A DNA stretch of 55,383 nucleotides from Deltaproteobacteria bacterium (GTDB lineage Bacteria; Desulfobacterota; Desulfobulbia; Desulfobulbales; SURF-16): positions 1 through 55,383 of the forward strand of contig JACRCD010000015.1 of NCBI GenBank assembly GCA_016219175.1. Direction: 5' to 3'. The notes under the pieces are model-generated. The model searched no databases. It was not told where the DNA came from and saw only the letters and a program-made list of their open reading frames with translations. Below, one piece after another: positions 36,174 to 43,769 of the stretch; the first letter of the stretch is position 1; every line of letters starts with the position of its first letter. Both the position numbers and the translations under genes were made by a program.

Positions 36174-37265
36174 TTAGTCATCCTTGGTGGTATGGCAGAC
36201 AAAGCAGCCGCATTCAGCACTTTCCGTGCCCGCCACGCAGGTGTCATAATCCCAGCGCAGCATATCCGGATACGGCGAGCCATGGGGACGATGACAGGAG
36301 ATGCAGGTCACCACATCCTGGCCCAGATCCACTCCGGAATAATTCTTCCGGCCGGCCAGATCGGTTTTCGCCACCGGCGCCAGAGGATTGTAATCGGTAT
36401 AAGCCGCATACTCACCGCTGTCAGGGATGACGACATCCGAGGGATGGCGCAGCCAGGCCCCGGCATAGTCAACGGGCTGGTCGCTGTTCATCTCATGGTG
36501 GAAATTTCCATGACAGCCGCAGCAGAACTGCCCGATGCTATAACGGGTCATGAAAAGTTCTTTGTCGTAAACAGCCGAGGTGCCGAAATAACCATTATGT
36601 TTTCCAGCGGAAGGATTCTGCTCCCAATCTTCTTCTTCAATACCCTTGACGCCATACAATGCGGGGTTAGCCATCATGGCCGGCAGCGCCCCCAGAAAAC
36701 GGTACCAGCCGCCCGCGGCCTCGACAACCTCCGCGGTATCCCTGGCATGATGCCGAGGATAATGACACCCCTTACAACCGCTGCTTTCCGTGGCCAGGGT
36801 ATCATGACAGGGCGAACAGCTGGTGGAGTGCCCCGGCGCGAAAAACGTCCAGGCCGGGCCGGACAGGACGCTGTCAGCTTCAGAGATGCCGTAGACATTG
36901 TGCCCCATGGCATCCCCTCCGTTCTGGGCGACCCAGTAGAAATTACCGCCGGCCAGGACGGAGGAGGCCGAGCCGTTAGGCGGATAAGTCGGCTGCACGG
37001 TGTTAAAGACGATGGGCACGCGATCGCCGTTTCCCATGTCAACGATGGTGGCGGTGCCGTTGTTGGTGTGACAACCCACGCAGTCGTCATTCAGAAGCGT
37101 TTGCTGTACACCTTTTGCACCGGGCACCATGTCCGCCCCATCCTGGCTGTTGTGCATGGTATGGCAGTTAGAGCATGGCCCCTGCACACTGGCGGATACC
37201 GGTGGCGCAAAAAGCATTAAAGCCGTCATCAAAATGGAAGCAATGGAGGCGGATTGGCTTTTCAT
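36174..37265 (-). CDS. Heptahaem c-type cytochrome
   Basis: 363 residues with a signal peptide (residues ~1-26, ending APPVSAS) and seven CxxCH haem sites: CSNCH 31-35, CVGCH 62-66, CSPCH 150-154, CKGCH 164-168, CCGCH 249-253, CISCH 321-325 and CFVCH 354-358. The N-terminal GPCSNCHTMHNSQ is typical of multihaem cytochromes of sulfate- and iron-reducing Desulfobacterota. It should be exported and carry electrons in the periplasm or at the surface. It is the last gene of the cytochrome locus, 68 bp after the tetrahaem gene. The redox partner is unknown. Confidence 0.9.
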   Translation of the reverse strand: MKSQSASIASILMTALMLFAPPVSASVQGPCSNCHTMHNSQDGADMVPGAKGVQQTLLNDDCVGCHTNNGTATIVDMGNGDRVPIVFNTVQPTYPPNGSASSVLAGGNFYWVAQNGGDAMGHNVYGISEADSVLSGPAWTFFAPGHSTSCSPCHDTLATESSGCKGCHYPRHHARDTAEVVEAAGGWYRFLGALPAMMANPALYGVKGIEEEDWEQNPSAGKHNGYFGTSAVYDKELFMTRYSIGQFCCGCHGNFHHEMNSDQPVDYAGAWLRHPSDVVIPDSGEYAAYTDYNPLAPVAKTDLAGRKNYSGVDLGQDVVTCISCHRPHGSPYPDMLRWDYDTCVAGTESAECGCFVCHTTKDD

Positions 37266-37333: not shown

Positions 37334-37828
37334 TTATCTGCGGCTATCATGACAAACATCACAGTGATAACCAAGCTGGTGATGACGATTGCTTCCCCCC
37401 ATCCTGGGCGGCGCGGACACTGTTTCAACGGGATGGCATATCAGGCAATCCCGGTAGAGTGAAACCGTGTAGCCGGGAATATCCGCATCCCAAACCAACG
37501 GATGACAGAAGAGGCATTCATAGGTATCGGCAATAACCGCACCAGGGGGAGCGGTGGGCAGGATAATCTCCGTTCCCGTCAACAAATGATGCTTGTTCGT
37601 ATTGGCCTCTTCAAGAAGAGGAAACCTCACCAGATCATCATGGCAAGCGCGGCAATCCGCTTCGCCGGGCAAACCGTCTCCCCCGGTTGCTCCATTCCAG
37701 GCCGCCGCCTCGGGGGCAGGCAAGCATAACAACAGACCGGTCGCAAAGCAGATCCCGGTAAAAAAGGACTTGCTGCCAACAACTCGTTGCCTATATCTTT
37801 TTTTCCTACCCAGCAGCCACTTTTTCAT
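37334..37828 (-). CDS. Tetrahaem c-type cytochrome, short paralogue of the octahaem protein
   Basis: 164 residues with a basic N-terminus and a hydrophobic signal (~20-43), then four CxxCH sites at residues 59-63, 105-109, 128-132 and 156-160. It aligns with the first four haems of the octahaem protein at 40444-41886: both have a CxxCH, then (R/K)HHLL(V/T)G, then Y-ECL-x-CH-x-LVW, then RDCL-x-CH with matching spacing. It stops there, without the remaining four haems and without the C-terminal Ig-like part. A strong ribosome site (GAGGAGATGTT) precedes the ATG. It may be an electron partner or a terminal unit of the larger protein. Confidence 0.9.
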   Translation of the reverse strand: MKKWLLGRKKRYRQRVVGSKSFFTGICFATGLLLCLPAPEAAAWNGATGGDGLPGEADCRACHDDLVRFPLLEEANTNKHHLLTGTEIILPTAPPGAVIADTYECLFCHPLVWDADIPGYTVSLYRDCLICHPVETVSAPPRMGGSNRHHQLGYHCDVCHDSRR

Positions 37829-37958
37829 AACATCTCCTCAGGGAAAAAAGTCAGAGCATGTTCCGGTTGACGGAACACGCTATTTTTTTACTTAATCAAA
37901 CTCGTCAGTTAAACATGTGTATCCATAACTGCTCAGGGGTTACCCTTCAGTCTATTTA

Positions 37959-38957
37959 TCAATTCAGAAAAACCTGTATGTCCGCCTTCTTCCTCAGTTC
38001 CGCAATATGCAAGGCAATCTGTTTTGACATCTTCTCGCCCTGCAGATATTTGCTGATAAAATCACGGACATCTGCCAGGGGAACATAACCGCCGCCGGGT
38101 TGCCGGCCCGTTACCTGAATAATGTGGTAACCATATCGAGTCGCCACAACCCCGCTCAGCTCCCCTTCAGGGAGAACAAAGGCGACAGCATCAAATTCAG
38201 CGGGCATGAAACCTCTCTTGATAAAGCCGAGGTCGCCGCCTTTATCCTTTGTCCGGGCGCAATCGGAATGCAGCGCTGCCAACTGCGGGAATTGTCCGCC
38301 GTTTTCCTTGAGCTGGGCGAGAACCTGTTCCGCCTCCTGCCTGGCCTTGCTCTTCTCCTCCATGGAGGCATTATTGCCGACGGCAATCAGTATATGATTT
38401 GCCTTGACGGTTTCCTCTCTTTTGAAATTTTCTTTTGCCCGCTCATAGAAAGCGGCTATTTCCTCTTCCGATGGCTCAAGATTTGACAAGCCGTGGCCTG
38501 CCAGATAGGCATCCATCTGTATCTGCCCTCGGTACTCATCGAGAATCTTTTCAGGGGTAAGTTTTTTGGCATCAAGGTAGCGGGCGAAGGCTTCGGGCGA
38601 CTTGAATCCGGCCTGCCTTGCCGCCATTTTTTTTGAGGCCTGCTCTTCTCCATCTTTTATGGCCATGGTGCTGCTGGCCTGACGCAGCAATTCCTGATCA
38701 ATGATTTTATCCAGCACCTGTTTCCTCAGGGTCGCGTTCAGCTTGGCGGTTGCCTGGCGCATGCCGAAGCCGGCATATTTCCGAAGCTGCTTCTCCACCT
38801 CAGCCGTAAGTACACTCTCAACAACCGGAACACCGTTTACTGTCGCCACAACGGTTGCGGCGGCCTCGGTCTGGCTCATGCCGTCAGAGGCCGTGGCAGA
38901 CAATGGCAGCAGCAGCGCGGAGAAGAGATAAAAAAATATAAAAATAACCCGGGTCAT
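37959..38957 (-). CDS. Parvulin-type peptidyl-prolyl isomerase, exported
   Basis: 332 residues. A signal peptide (~1-24) is followed by a SurA/PrsA-like N-terminal helical chaperone part (~35-185) and one parvulin rotamase domain (~188-285). The rotamase shows ANHILIAV, DCARTKDKGGDLGF and GYHIIQVTGRQPGG. The C-terminal helix closes the chaperone part. It should assist folding of exported proteins in the periplasm. It lies 9 bp downstream of the subtilisin gene and is probably co-translated with it; a dedicated role in cytochrome maturation is inferred from the locus. Confidence 0.9.
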   Translation of the reverse strand: MTRVIFIFFYLFSALLLPLSATASDGMSQTEAAATVVATVNGVPVVESVLTAEVEKQLRKYAGFGMRQATAKLNATLRKQVLDKIIDQELLRQASSTMAIKDGEEQASKKMAARQAGFKSPEAFARYLDAKKLTPEKILDEYRGQIQMDAYLAGHGLSNLEPSEEEIAAFYERAKENFKREETVKANHILIAVGNNASMEEKSKARQEAEQVLAQLKENGGQFPQLAALHSDCARTKDKGGDLGFIKRGFMPAEFDAVAFVLPEGELSGVVATRYGYHIIQVTGRQPGGGYVPLADVRDFISKYLQGEKMSKQIALHIAELRKKADIQVFLN

Positions 38958-38966
38958 GATCGTCCC

Positions 38967-40250
38967 TTACGTATTGCCGCCAAAGTTTGTCGCGAAAGCC
39001 TCCAGACTGATGTCATTGGCGCCGGCCGCCAGCTGGTTGGCAAAAACAACAAGATCCAGACCGTCAACATCCCCATCCGCGGCTATTGCCGCTGCCGCAT
39101 CTACAAGGCCAAAGCCGTACAGCTCATCGCGGCCGGGATCACCCAGATCAATTGCGGTCTGCTGCAACAGCTGGCGGACATCCAGGTTGTTGATGACGCC
39201 ATCGAAGTTGACGTCAATCGCCCCGGCGGACATGATCAAGGCCGCGGCGGCCGTGACATGCGGAGCCGCCTGGGAGGTGCCGCTCAGCAATCCATAACCT
39301 CCGCCCGACACTGTTGACTGGATCTCCACCCCGGGAGCCATGAGTTCAATCTCCGTATCCATGGGGGAAAAATAGGCGGGCAGATCACTTTGATCCGATG
39401 CCGACACGGCAATAACCGAATCATAGGCAGCGGGATAGAGAACATCGCCTTGCCGGGTGTTGCCGGCGGCCGCCACCAACAGCAGTCCGGCAGCATAGGC
39501 TGCATCGCAGGCCTCCCGCAGGGCCGGCGAGTCCGGCCCGGCAATACTGAGATTAGCGATATCCATTTTGTTTTCAACCGCCCACTCAAGGCCGGAAATA
39601 ACAAAACTGAGCAGACCGAAGCCCGCCCCATCAAGGACCTTGACTGCGTATAACGAGGCGTCAGGAGCCCCGCCGATAACGCCATTGCCGTCCGCCGCCG
39701 CCGTTATGATGCCCGAGACATGGGTGCCATGGCTGTTCCAGCTGTCATCAAAGGGAACACTGTCATCAAAAACAAAATCATAGCCGCCCTGATAGCTGGG
39801 CAGAAACTCGGGATGGGTATAATCAATGCCGCTGTCAAGCACGGCAATCCTAACACCTGAACCCGTGACACCCTGTTCATGGACGGACTGGCAGCCTATA
39901 CGGGAAATTCCCCAGGAAGTGCTGTATTCGGCAGAAGATGGTTCCGGATCAACGGCGTAAACCTCCTCATCCTCCGCCACGTATTTAATGCGAGGATCGG
40001 CGCGCAGACGGAAAATTTCCTGTTCAGGAATGTTGGCGGCCCAGGCATTGATGAGCCGGAAAGCATGTTTCATCCTGCCCCGGTGATTATGAAGAAGCGC
40101 CTGTTCGGACTGAGACGGTTTTTTATGGAAACCGATAATGACCGCGCGCTCCTGGGAAGAGGCGGCGTCAGCTCTCTCTGCTGCTAGAAACAAAGCGATG
40201 AGGGTAGTAATAAAGAGCAGAGGATTGCAGCTGCCTTCCGGCTTTTTCAT
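38967..40250 (-). CDS. Subtilisin-like S8 serine protease, exported
   Basis: 427 residues. A signal peptide (~1-30), an I9-type propeptide (~35-100) and a peptidase S8 domain with the complete catalytic set D139 (AVLDSGID), H174 (NSHGTHVSG), N264 (AAAGNT) and S326 (GTSQAAP). A dockerin-like calcium loop (DVNFDGVINNLDVRQLL, ~347-362) is inserted in the C-terminal part of the catalytic domain, and a second one (DGDVDGLDLVVFANQLA) ends the protein. It precedes the parvulin gene by 9 bp and follows the octahaem cytochrome gene. By analogy with OzpA of Geobacter, it may trim the octahaem precursor. Confidence 0.92.
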   Translation of the reverse strand: MKKPEGSCNPLLFITTLIALFLAAERADAASSQERAVIIGFHKKPSQSEQALLHNHRGRMKHAFRLINAWAANIPEQEIFRLRADPRIKYVAEDEEVYAVDPEPSSAEYSTSWGISRIGCQSVHEQGVTGSGVRIAVLDSGIDYTHPEFLPSYQGGYDFVFDDSVPFDDSWNSHGTHVSGIITAAADGNGVIGGAPDASLYAVKVLDGAGFGLLSFVISGLEWAVENKMDIANLSIAGPDSPALREACDAAYAAGLLLVAAAGNTRQGDVLYPAAYDSVIAVSASDQSDLPAYFSPMDTEIELMAPGVEIQSTVSGGGYGLLSGTSQAAPHVTAAAALIMSAGAIDVNFDGVINNLDVRQLLQQTAIDLGDPGRDELYGFGLVDAAAAIAADGDVDGLDLVVFANQLAAGANDISLEAFATNFGGNT

Positions 40251-40388
40251 GAATCCACCTTCACAACAACTCAGGTATTACGGCTGAAGTCAGAAGGGTG
40301 CGGGGCTGCCGGCAATGACTTATGTCCTGTCAGTGTCCCGTCGCGCCTTCAGTCTATCCATCTACCCACTTCATATGAAAAGAAGAGC

Positions 40389-40421
40389 CGGCAGGGAGAT
40401 GCCTTCGGTATCTCCCTGCCG
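40389..40421 (-). terminator. Strong hairpin after the octahaem cytochrome gene
   Basis: A 12-bp perfect stem (cggcagggagat / atctccctgccg) with a 9-nt loop. On the minus strand it is followed by ggctcttctttt. It stands 23 bp past the octahaem stop and before the protease gene, so it would limit read-through from the cytochrome into the protease. Confidence 0.7.
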
Positions 40422-40443
40422 CGCACCGATAACAACGGTCGTT

Positions 40444-41886
40444 TTATTTTCTGACCGGTTTTTTGATGATAGCTTTTTTCACCGTGACTGCGCCTGTGGC
40501 TTCGCCATACACACTGTCAACCGTGATTGACGGATCACACTCACCGCAATTGGCCTCAATGCTGGTATCAGTCCAGGAGAGAACGGTGCAGCCAGCCACG
40601 GCATCAGGCAGGGAGACCCCGGTGCCTGAACCTGTCGCATTGACATACTGACTGAAACCGCTACCGGAAATGCTGACCACCCCGCTTGCACAGCTGGCCG
40701 AAGCAACCTTGACCTGGGGCATGATGGCGAGATTGACGCTGTTGCTGACAGAGGTGCCCTTCACAGCGGTCACCGCATAGCTGCCGGCAGACATGGTTGC
40801 CGGCACCATGACGACAATGGTGTTCTCGGAAACGGAATCCGGGGTCAGCACGGTTTCACTGCCGTCCGCGGCTTTCAGGCAAATGGTGCTGGTTAATTCA
40901 ATGGGGCCTGTCGGGGTTTGCACCATATTGGAAAAGGCAACACCCGTGATGGTGAGCTGGGTCGCAAAGCCTGCCGTGATGGTGGAATCGCTCAGGCTGG
41001 TAATGTCAGGAATGACGGGACCGGAATAAGGAGCTGAAAGCGCGGTAAAGCCATGGCAGCCCCAACAGTCGTCCTGCTTGCCGATATGCCCGAAATAGGC
41101 ATTTTCGGTTCCCGGATCAATGCCGTCACCATCGGAATCCACCTGGATATTGTGCAGGGATTTCACGCCGTGACACGCCTCGCATTGCCGGACTTTTGCA
41201 TCATCGTCGGCATTGGTGTCATGGCAGAGCACGCACTTGGTCGAATCAATACCCAAACCGGTGCTGTGGTGGGTGGTGGCATTTGAATAAACGGTGATTC
41301 CCGACACGGCGTCAACCCCGGCATTATGGCAGAAGGCGCAGCCGCCTTCACCATTGGCGCCGGTGCCGATACCGGTCTGGGGGGTCACCAGGGACGGGGC
41401 ATAGCTGGGAATGTAATGACCGTCTCCCGGATTATCGATCGGTCCATGGCAGGCCTTGCAGTCATTGGCCTGGGCCTTGGCCGTCAGATGGTGCACGGAT
41501 GCCTGGCCGGCTTGCTGCTCATGGCAGAGAAGACAATCCCTGAAGGAGACGAAACTGTAACTGTAGGTGACATCACTCCAGACCAGCTGGTGACAGGATA
41601 AGCATTCATAAGCCGCTCCGGGGACTCCATGGGGTGCCGCCGTCGGATCGGGGATGACCTTGCCAACCAGGAGATGGTGCCGGTTGGGGATTGTTTCCGG
41701 CTTGACAACTGTGGTGTCTTCATGGCAGCCACGGCAGTTTGCCTCAACAAGGTTGTTAAAAACTCCGTCAGGAATGCCCATGTTCTGGTTTACCGGAGGA
41801 GGTGGAACAGTGGCCCAGGAAGAAGCCGCGAAAGTGATTGTCAGAGTTGCTGGCAAGGCCAGGGAACACAAAAATTTTTTTAACAT
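40444..41886 (-). CDS. Octahaem c-type cytochrome with C-terminal Ig-like (IPT/TIG) region, OmcZ-like
   Basis: 480 residues from the ATG at 41886, chosen for its GAGGAG site 4 nt upstream and because it begins the signal peptide (MLKKFLCSLALP...SSWA). The N-terminal ~280 residues hold eight CxxCH sites (CRGCH, CLSCH, CLLCH, CKACH, CAFCH, CVLCH, CEACH, CWGCH) and at least eight further histidines, including three HH pairs, enough for bis-His ligation. The remaining ~190 residues have no haem and read as two IPT/TIG-like beta domains. The layout (eight haems plus a removable ~20 kDa tail, beside a subtilisin) resembles the OmcZ precursor of Geobacter. Sequence homology to OmcZ itself is not shown. 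Confidence 0.88.
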   Translation of the reverse strand: MLKKFLCSLALPATLTITFAASSWATVPPPPVNQNMGIPDGVFNNLVEANCRGCHEDTTVVKPETIPNRHHLLVGKVIPDPTAAPHGVPGAAYECLSCHQLVWSDVTYSYSFVSFRDCLLCHEQQAGQASVHHLTAKAQANDCKACHGPIDNPGDGHYIPSYAPSLVTPQTGIGTGANGEGGCAFCHNAGVDAVSGITVYSNATTHHSTGLGIDSTKCVLCHDTNADDDAKVRQCEACHGVKSLHNIQVDSDGDGIDPGTENAYFGHIGKQDDCWGCHGFTALSAPYSGPVIPDITSLSDSTITAGFATQLTITGVAFSNMVQTPTGPIELTSTICLKAADGSETVLTPDSVSENTIVVMVPATMSAGSYAVTAVKGTSVSNSVNLAIMPQVKVASASCASGVVSISGSGFSQYVNATGSGTGVSLPDAVAGCTVLSWTDTSIEANCGECDPSITVDSVYGEATGAVTVKKAIIKKPVRK

Positions 41887-42177: not shown

Positions 42178-42804
42178 TTAATTCTGCTTTCTGCGGCGGC
42201 TCAGGCCAGCCAAAGCGGCCAGACCGGAACCGAGAAAAACGATGGCGCCCGGCAGCGGCACGGCGTCTGTCACAACGTCAACCCGGAAATCAAGCAAGGA
42301 GCCAAAGTCGCCTGTGGCGTTGTCGAACACGGCAAGACTCCAGATGCCGGCCGCCGCATCGCCATTGTAATCGGAAAGGAGATTGCTTTCGCCGGCTTCG
42401 GGATTGGATGTGGGCTTGAAGGAACCAGGACCGTAGGGTGGGATACCGTCATTGATATGGATCAGGGCCTGGTCGTCGAACAGCACGTCAGTCATGTTAT
42501 TGCGTGAATCACCGTCGATATCATTATACAGCTGAACCCATTTCCAGGCAGAGCTGCCCGGCTCCTGATGGGCCACATAGATATCCAGATCACCAATCCA
42601 GGTATGGGTGATGTCGAGAAAGACATTGACGTCGGCTATGTCGCCCAGATCTCCGCCGACATTAATGTCAGCATTGACCCAGCTACCATCGGTAATGGCC
42701 TGCGTCCCGCCTGTAAAATTAAATGAATACGTTGCTGCGGCCGCCGGTCCGGCCAAGGCAAGACAAAGCATTGCGACCGGTAGAACACCTGTTAGTTTTT
42801 TCAT
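42178..42804 (-). CDS. P-domain surface protein with PEP-CTERM-like anchor
   Basis: 208 residues. A signal peptide (~1-24) leads to a proprotein-convertase P-type domain (HTWIGDLDIYVAHQEP, and later GIWSLAVFDNATGDFGSL). The last 27 residues are VPLPGA, a hydrophobic segment with GSGLAALAGL, and the basic tail SRRRKQN. This is the VPLPGA variant of the PEP-CTERM sorting signal, normally processed by exosortase. It should be an exported, surface- or matrix-associated protein. A GAGGAG site lies before the ATG. No exosortase gene is in this window. Confidence 0.85.
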   Translation of the reverse strand: MKKLTGVLPVAMLCLALAGPAAAATYSFNFTGGTQAITDGSWVNADINVGGDLGDIADVNVFLDITHTWIGDLDIYVAHQEPGSSAWKWVQLYNDIDGDSRNNMTDVLFDDQALIHINDGIPPYGPGSFKPTSNPEAGESNLLSDYNGDAAAGIWSLAVFDNATGDFGSLLDFRVDVVTDAVPLPGAIVFLGSGLAALAGLSRRRKQN

Positions 42805-43220: not shown

Positions 43221-43769
43221 CTAACAACAGCCGCAGCCGCCTGACCCGCAGCTATCGCCGGGACCGCAACTGCCCTTTTCCGTTGACCCGCAGCCGCAGC
43301 CGCAGCCGGAGGTAAGCGCCGCCAGTTCTTCAGCGCTCGGCTCCCTGACTTCAACGATATTGACATCAAAAAGAAGCCGTTTGCCGGCCAGGGGATGATT
43401 AAGGTCAACGGTAACCGTGTTGTCAGCCTCATTTATCCTGGCCACACTGATCAGCACCGGGCCATGGGGGCCTTGGGCTTCAAAGGTCATGCCCGGCTCA
43501 AGCTCGGCGTCAGCGGGAAACTCTTCCCGGGCAACGTCCTGAAACAGCTCCTCGCTGACAGTACCATAGCCGTCCTCGGGTTCCACAATGATGCGGGAAC
43601 TGTCTCCGGCCTTCATGCCCATGAGTGCGGTCTCCAGACCAGGGATGACCTCGCCGGCCCCGGTGATAAACTCCAGGGGCTCTCCCTCGGGGGAGCTGTC
43701 CACCTCTTCCCCCGAGTCCAACGTCAGCCTGTAGTCAATAGCCACATACGATTTATCTGCAATATTCAC
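43221..43769 (-). CDS. slyD: FKBP-type peptidyl-prolyl isomerase SlyD-like
   Basis: 182 residues. It has the SlyD fold order: FKBP half (MNIADKSYVAIDYRLTLDSGEEVD), IF/insert-in-flap domain (GYGTVSEELFQDV ... GMTFEAQGPHG), then the second FKBP part (DLNHPLAGKRLLFDVNIVEV). The last ~35 residues are a Cys/Gly-rich tail with about ten cysteines and no histidines, suited to binding Ni, Zn or other soft metals. The start is GTG at 43769, 6 nt after GGAGGT. SlyD proteins act as a folding helper and metallochaperone for NiFe hydrogenase. A terminator-like unit upstream may control it. Confidence 0.93.
   Translation of the reverse strand: MNIADKSYVAIDYRLTLDSGEEVDSSPEGEPLEFITGAGEVIPGLETALMGMKAGDSSRIIVEPEDGYGTVSEELFQDVAREEFPADAELEPGMTFEAQGPHGPVLISVARINEADNTVTVDLNHPLAGKRLLFDVNIVEVREPSAEELAALTSGCGCGCGSTEKGSCGPGDSCGSGGCGCC

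Follow-up and report, generated by a model that had tools for sequence, protein, structure and literature searches.

On contig JACRCD010000015.1 of a Deltaproteobacteria bacterium (assembly GCA_016219175.1; Desulfobulbales, SURF-16), all 55,383 nucleotides of which are here called the window, a run of minus-strand genes is read, at a probability of roughly 0.8, as an OmcZ-type cytochrome nanowire set. In reading order these genes encode an octahaem cytochrome, an S8 protease, a parvulin, a tetrahaem cytochrome termed HALF4 and a heptahaem cytochrome, and the sequence-level support for the assignment comprises homology, gene linkage, conserved histidines, an RNA hairpin and the co-occurrence of HALF4 with OmcZ. 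The OmcZ-protease-isomerase part is a further case of a published kind, as titles, abstracts and passages of the literature surveyed already describe OmcZ homologues, and sets of the omcZ-ozpA or OmcZ-protease-isomerase type, in organisms other than Geobacter (PMC9473688, PMC9012536, PMC11208441), together with a screen for OmcZ in Desulfurivibrionaceae (PMC12545173). The new part is HALF4, for which no mention of a tetrahaem OmcZ half-paralogue was found in the same titles, abstracts and passages, although an earlier mention is possible.

A predicted OmcZ precursor with its protease and isomerase

The octahaem gene (40444..41886, minus strand) lies in an open frame from 41928 that offers several possible start codons, and its product is predicted to be an OmcZ-type precursor. 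Residues 16-483 align with the Geobacter sulfurreducens OmcZ precursor (8d9m_A, E 1.2e-73, phmmer against the Protein Data Bank, PDB), a likeness that is not due to chance because the alignment spans this much of the precursor, and the filament chain 7lq5_A is matched at E 2.5e-46. A first-pass annotation of this DNA, made from the letters alone, had described eight haems, a haem-free tail and histidines sufficient for bis-His ligation, and the description holds. The eight CXXCH motifs fall within residues 65-292, the last 196 residues contain neither CXXCH nor histidine, and 16 histidines, eight in the haem motifs and eight distal to them, are invariant across 17 aligned sequences (the window protein and 16 relatives). 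Counterparts of these 16 are visible in the 8d9m alignment and, by analogy with the Geobacter structure, they would be the haem ligands, in the number needed for eight bis-His haems. Translated from the start at 41886 the precursor has a mass of 49.5 kDa, and the putative mature stretch (41035..41808, minus strand; residues 41-298 of the open frame, with 8 CXXCH), whose ends are set by the 7lq5 alignment, has 258 residues and a mass of 32.1 kDa with eight haems. These predicted sizes fit the 50 and 30 kDa forms reported for G. sulfurreducens OmcZ (PMC9473688, PMC12307469).

The 196-residue tail (40447..41034, minus strand), expected to be removed, had been called Ig-like (immunoglobulin-like) at first pass, and modelling agrees with this. 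AlphaFold2 builds it of strands, with block means of 68-95 over model residues 301-470, and Foldseek pairs it with Ig- and IPT-type domains (best E 7.6e-6), a result that bears on the tail alone, the whole-model TM-scores being low (0.12-0.21 among the matches listed). The Pfam family TIG scores 18.2 bits on it, below the cut-off of 20.9. Two Ig-like sandwiches are thus the predicted architecture, and a two-sandwich tail has been described for G. sulfurreducens OmcZ (PMC9473688). Both the tail and the linker ahead of it are conserved among the aligned sequences.

The predicted secreted, OzpA-like protease (38967..40250, minus strand) matches Peptidase_S8 at E 2e-55 and inhibitor I9 at E 2e-4. 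Its residues D139, H174, N264 and S326 sit in DSG/HGTH/AAAGN/GTSQAAPH, which we take to be the usual subtilase motifs carrying the catalytic residues, so that the catalytic set noted earlier is indeed complete. The SurA/PpiC-type parvulin prolyl isomerase (37959..38957, minus strand) matches Rotamase_3 at E 1.3e-25 and SurA_N_3 at E 6.6e-12; its export, also proposed at first pass, is suggested by a signal peptide, signal peptides and lipoboxes being assessed by eye throughout. A sub-threshold dockerin match occurs in the window protease. At another locus, L051:8377-10800 (genome G011), a dockerin protein and a PEP-CTERM protein, the latter matching cohesin below threshold, are encoded between the OmcZ and protease genes.

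The first-pass annotation had likened the three genes to OmcZ, OzpA and a nearby isomerase, and had allowed that relatives might show no conserved linkage. The likeness is substantiated by whole-precursor homology, tail included, and the linkage proves to be conserved. OmcZ loci were examined in the 24 genomes with a full-length OmcZ (G numbers denote genomes and L numbers fetched loci), namely 18 from the window's order, in which 257 genomes were searched for OmcZ and HALF4, and six from outside it (G061, G188, G320, G327, G357 and G375); G401, whose OmcZ match is only a fragment, located where a contig ends (L069), was excluded. An OzpA-like protease and a parvulin share the OmcZ locus in 20 of the 24 (14/18 in the order and 6/6 outside), with varying gene order, and the protease of G002 is broken into two frames that overlap. 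Outside the order, the OmcZ proteins of G188 and G320 match 8d9m at E 1.5e-156 and E 3.6e-120, and the G188 locus holds all three gene types, with the isomerase one gene away; the OmcZ-protease-isomerase set is therefore also found near the Geobacter type.

The G. sulfurreducens set itself (OmcZ GSU2076, OzpA GSU2075; PDB 8D9M, 7LQ5) has in common with the window the whole-precursor homology, the eight haem motifs, the 16 histidines, the two-sandwich tail and the presence of an S8 protease and a parvulin in the block. It differs in that the second haem motif of the window protein is CXXCH rather than CX14CH, and in that the window has the additional HALF4 and heptahaem genes. The window OmcZ shares 36-37% with the proteins of L062, L065 and L067, the nearest stand-ins for G. 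sulfurreducens OmcZ. Borgs and Methanoperedens resemble the window in having OmcZ with a protease and an isomerase, whereas the Methanoperedens, Borg and ANME sets, likened here by description only, are archaeal, and the passages describing them mention no tetrahaem half-paralogue (PMC11208441, PMC9012536). Among the relatives, L059 (G327) and L146 (G506) contain tandem OmcZ-like genes, including one of 1056 amino acids with 16 CXXCH and one of 1054 amino acids with 12 CXXCH. Another OmcZ-like protein, L066:8130-9263, has 377 amino acids and ten CXXCH, leaving no room for an Ig tail, and the 17 kb fetched around it gave no OzpA-like match.

A further shared feature is an RNA hairpin 3' of omcZ and ahead of the protease gene, found in the window at 40387..40424 (minus strand; z -4.68 against 200 shuffles). 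All 17 scored post-omcZ gaps, a set leaving out L059, L144, L146 and stand-alone OmcZ copies, contain such a hairpin, of 12-23 pairs and -25.4 to -34.2 kcal/mol, that starts no more than 48 bases from the omcZ stop; the next gene encodes the protease in 16 of the 17, an inserted gene following in L051. When the 17 stretches, some trimmed to part of the gap, were folded against shuffles, each gave a z of -2.4 or lower. Of 22 further gaps picked by hand in these loci, 17 stayed weaker than -25; the five that were as strong are the gap upstream of HALF4 in L052 and, in both L061 and L063, the isomerase-omcZ and post-protease gaps.

HALF4, a candidate partner of OmcZ

HALF4 (37334..37828, minus strand; signal peptide by eye) was recognised in a search of the window's own genome, where it shares 39% identity with the octahaem protein over OmcZ residues 33-144 (E 2e-17). 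With profiles it scores 189 against the OmcZ N-half and 54 against the C-half, the two halves scoring 49 against each other, and its four haem motifs and both HH pairs are in register with the N-half. It is small (about 13 kDa as apoprotein), has nine histidines, eight of them in register, and shows no lipobox by eye. With four haem motifs and no Ig tail it lacks the eight haems, the tail and the cleavage site of OmcZ, and by these comparisons it is a paralogue of one OmcZ half, not an OmcZ. Nor does it appear to be a recently broken copy, because in a tree of 44 sequences a single branch with support 100/100 divides the 20 HALF4 proteins from the 24 OmcZ N-halves, indicating an old split. HALF4 also has conserved stretches of its own, RFPxLxxxN and a TVSGxP-like one. 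Like carriers of the cytochrome c7/c3 type it is a small tetrahaem protein, with a Cytochrome_C7 match of 18.9 bits that falls below the cut-off of 24.8; unlike them, it follows the OmcZ N-half in its haem and distal-histidine register and carries the conserved stretches just named.

Its distribution follows that of OmcZ. Strong HALF4 genes, defined as short frames with E below 1e-50, occur in 13 of the 18 full-OmcZ genomes of the order (G027, G434, G437, G501 and G506 being the ones without) and in none of the 239 others. Fisher p is 3.4e-18 by genome and 1.1e-7 by genus (7/10 versus 0/59), values that serve only as guides since the genomes are related. In a phylum sample of 395 genomes, ten of them with full OmcZ, the corresponding figures are 6/10 and 0/385, G401 being counted among the 385; four positives (the window's own genome G000, G011, G371 and G389) are common to the two samples. 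Within the order 12 of the 13 strong copies lie within 5.5 kb of OmcZ and the remaining one, in G504, lies about 1.5 kb from the isomerase gene with one gene between, while in the two HALF4 genomes outside the order, G357 and G375, HALF4 is unlinked to OmcZ. Weaker HALF4-like frames are found away from OmcZ in G001, G003 and G513, where they form a divergent subfamily, and in two genomes without OmcZ, G514 and G026. In G001 the divergent tetrahaem gene adjoins TamB-like and Omp85 genes, and like-sized genes stand beside that of G003 (L054:1-6597, L055:2-6727).

Where HALF4 most resembles OmcZ may hint at what it does. Identity peaks between HH1 and motif 2, at 39% compared with 22, 29, 20 and 3% elsewhere, and this segment ranks top in ten of 13 HALF4/OmcZ pairs (the exceptions being L050, L138 and L141, and five of the 13 pairs coming from one genus); the greatest difference from OmcZ lies in the HALF4 stretch adjoining the missing half. 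The segment leads into the counterpart of the N-terminal interface haem, and the pattern, suggestive only, would suit a cap or connector. Coevolution of HALF4 with the OmcZ of the same genome gave no clear matched-pair signal, the number of permutations out of 10000 equalling or exceeding the matched pairs being 658 for segment A, 693 for B, 4623 for C, 1129 for D and 212 for all columns, and, with eight representatives, 2568 for B, 8741 for C and 1264 for all columns. A HALF4-only profile run against the PDB did not find OmcZ significantly (7lq5, E 0.53), the first match being 7tfs, another cytochrome, at 0.0046, and the link between HALF4 and OmcZ thus rests on the window's nearer relatives. 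The AlphaFold2 model of HALF4 (mean predicted local distance difference test, pLDDT, 47.4; predicted TM-score, pTM, 0.29) is unusable for docking.

Filament, monomer and the place of HALF4

How would such a set work? The octahaem precursor of about 50 kDa would be exported and loaded with eight c-type haems, every one of them ligated by a pair of histidines from within the subunit, with the parvulin aiding the folding of exported proteins and the attached two-Ig tail hindering polymerisation. The OzpA-like protease would cut beyond the last haem and ahead of the first Ig domain, near FTALS/APYSGP, after which the octahaem part could stack into an extracellular conductive filament. The post-omcZ hairpin may hold cytochrome output above protease output, and HALF4, as an old duplicate of the N-terminal half, might dock on the filament as a cap or connector or pass electrons to it. 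In G. sulfurreducens cleavage by OzpA is needed for OmcZ wires (PMC12307469), and the OmcZ cluster is stated to suffice in a heterologous host (PMC11208441).

Several observations weigh against the reading as a nanowire set. The fetched OmcZ locus lacks protease and isomerase in four of the 24 genomes (G513, G434, G027 and G504, the last having them on a contig other than that of OmcZ), lone OmcZ copies occur in G357 (2/3) and G437 (1/2), and G004, of the window's own genus, gave no OmcZ match in the search. Over most of the haem part the AlphaFold2 model stays below pLDDT 50, and with a whole-model pTM of 0.40 it is unusable for packing or interfaces. The omcZ hairpin is missing from the output of the terminator scan of the window, and termination is therefore just one way to read it; it may be a partial terminator or a 3'-end stabiliser, in either case favouring cytochrome over protease. 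More generally, the role of cytochrome filaments as physiological conduits is disputed (PMC11077965, PMC11021709). Finally, the window protein lacks the CX14CH loop with which G. sulfurreducens OmcZ makes part of its subunit interface (PMC9473688), and CXXCH stands at this position in 16 of the 17 aligned rows, the other, L062, having CX11CH there and CX5CH at motif 1. The loop is not taken as family-defining because a subset of Borg OmcZ is also without it (PMC11208441). Its absence, with an OmcZ-type filament here a prediction from the genes, does lend something to the view that the octahaem protein is an OmcZ homologue acting as a monomeric extracellular or periplasmic cytochrome which the protease merely releases, no filament being formed. 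The OmcZ fold is evidently used in other ways as well, because relatives carry tail-less or enlarged OmcZ-like proteins, such as the ten-motif protein of L066 and the 16-motif one of L059. We nevertheless consider a monomer improbable, in view of the precursor, protease and isomerase occurring together in 20 of 24 genomes and of the conserved tail and linker.

For HALF4 we favour a dedicated partner of OmcZ, and the question is of what kind. It retains a counterpart to the haem that sits, in the G. sulfurreducens protein, at the N-terminal face between subunits, and is without the half that would meet the next subunit, and for this reason it could dock on one filament end, either stopping growth or connecting the wire to an outer-membrane conduit. 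This role of dedicated end piece is put forward tentatively and is, on balance, doubtful. The data are explained no less well by a soluble electron carrier, and a free periplasmic shuttle delivering electrons to OmcZ or to an outer-membrane conduit, with no subunit-like docking, is a serious possibility falling somewhat short of an even chance: the small size, the lack of a visible lipobox, the separation from OmcZ in both genomes outside the order and the unclear matched-pair signal all suit it, whereas descent from one specific OmcZ half (189 versus 54) and the failure to find strong HALF4 in those searched genomes that have no full OmcZ do not. That HALF4 is functionally unrelated and travels with OmcZ by neighbourhood only would account for the divergent subfamily away from OmcZ and for the weak frames in the two OmcZ-less genomes, but seems unlikely when all 13 strong copies of the order remain near OmcZ or the protease-isomerase pair despite a changed gene order in G018, G513 and G504. 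A 2025 review calls the assembly, anchoring and membrane coupling of cytochrome nanowires little known (PMC12307469). HALF4 offers a concrete and testable candidate for such a role and, were the end-piece proposal true, a conductive protein polymer would here have its terminator or adapter built in.

Neighbouring genes and genome setting

The span proposed at first pass, 37959-41886, correctly took in the three genes from octahaem cytochrome to parvulin, but its upper end is one of several possible starts and it left out the HALF4 and heptahaem genes, which extend the same-strand run beyond it. A terminator-like hairpin with a T run (37855..37881, minus strand; terminator scan, z -3.27) separates the isomerase and HALF4 genes. 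A promoter scan of the region gave no excess of sites (3 versus 4.1 in shuffles), so that the block may be a single operon on grounds of spacing and strand only. The heptahaem cytochrome (36174..37265, minus strand; Paired_CXXCH by Pfam) is a neighbour of uncertain relevance that is not counted as core of the set; a PDB search reaching to E 1 matched nothing to it (as protein P0005). Relatives of it, among the loci examined, are confined to the window's genus and L052, with one at the corresponding place in L046, L048 and L049 and a six-motif form in L052.

The window's genome contains 928 CXXCH DNA motifs compared with 143 in a reversed control, and its DsrA match is over the cut-off. At G000:C8:14056-17317 ten CXXCH motifs are followed directly by an MtrB/PioB-type porin, a pair that is likely to be an MtrAB-type outer-membrane conduit. 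The host would thus be a sulphur metaboliser rich in cytochromes and probably equipped with one or more outer-membrane conduits, and the genome in which the complete wire-making set would be placed has dsrA and an MtrB/PioB-type porin besides its many cytochromes.

The gene immediately upstream of that for OmcZ, 42178-42804 (minus strand), has a P-domain (proprotein-convertase) match of 24.5 bits over a cut-off of 21; the C-terminus of its product resembles what we take to be a PEP-CTERM sorting signal, one that Pfam did not report. A second prolyl isomerase is encoded near the block at 43221-43769 (minus strand); it is of FKBP type (E 7.8e-17) and has a tail rich in Cys and Gly.

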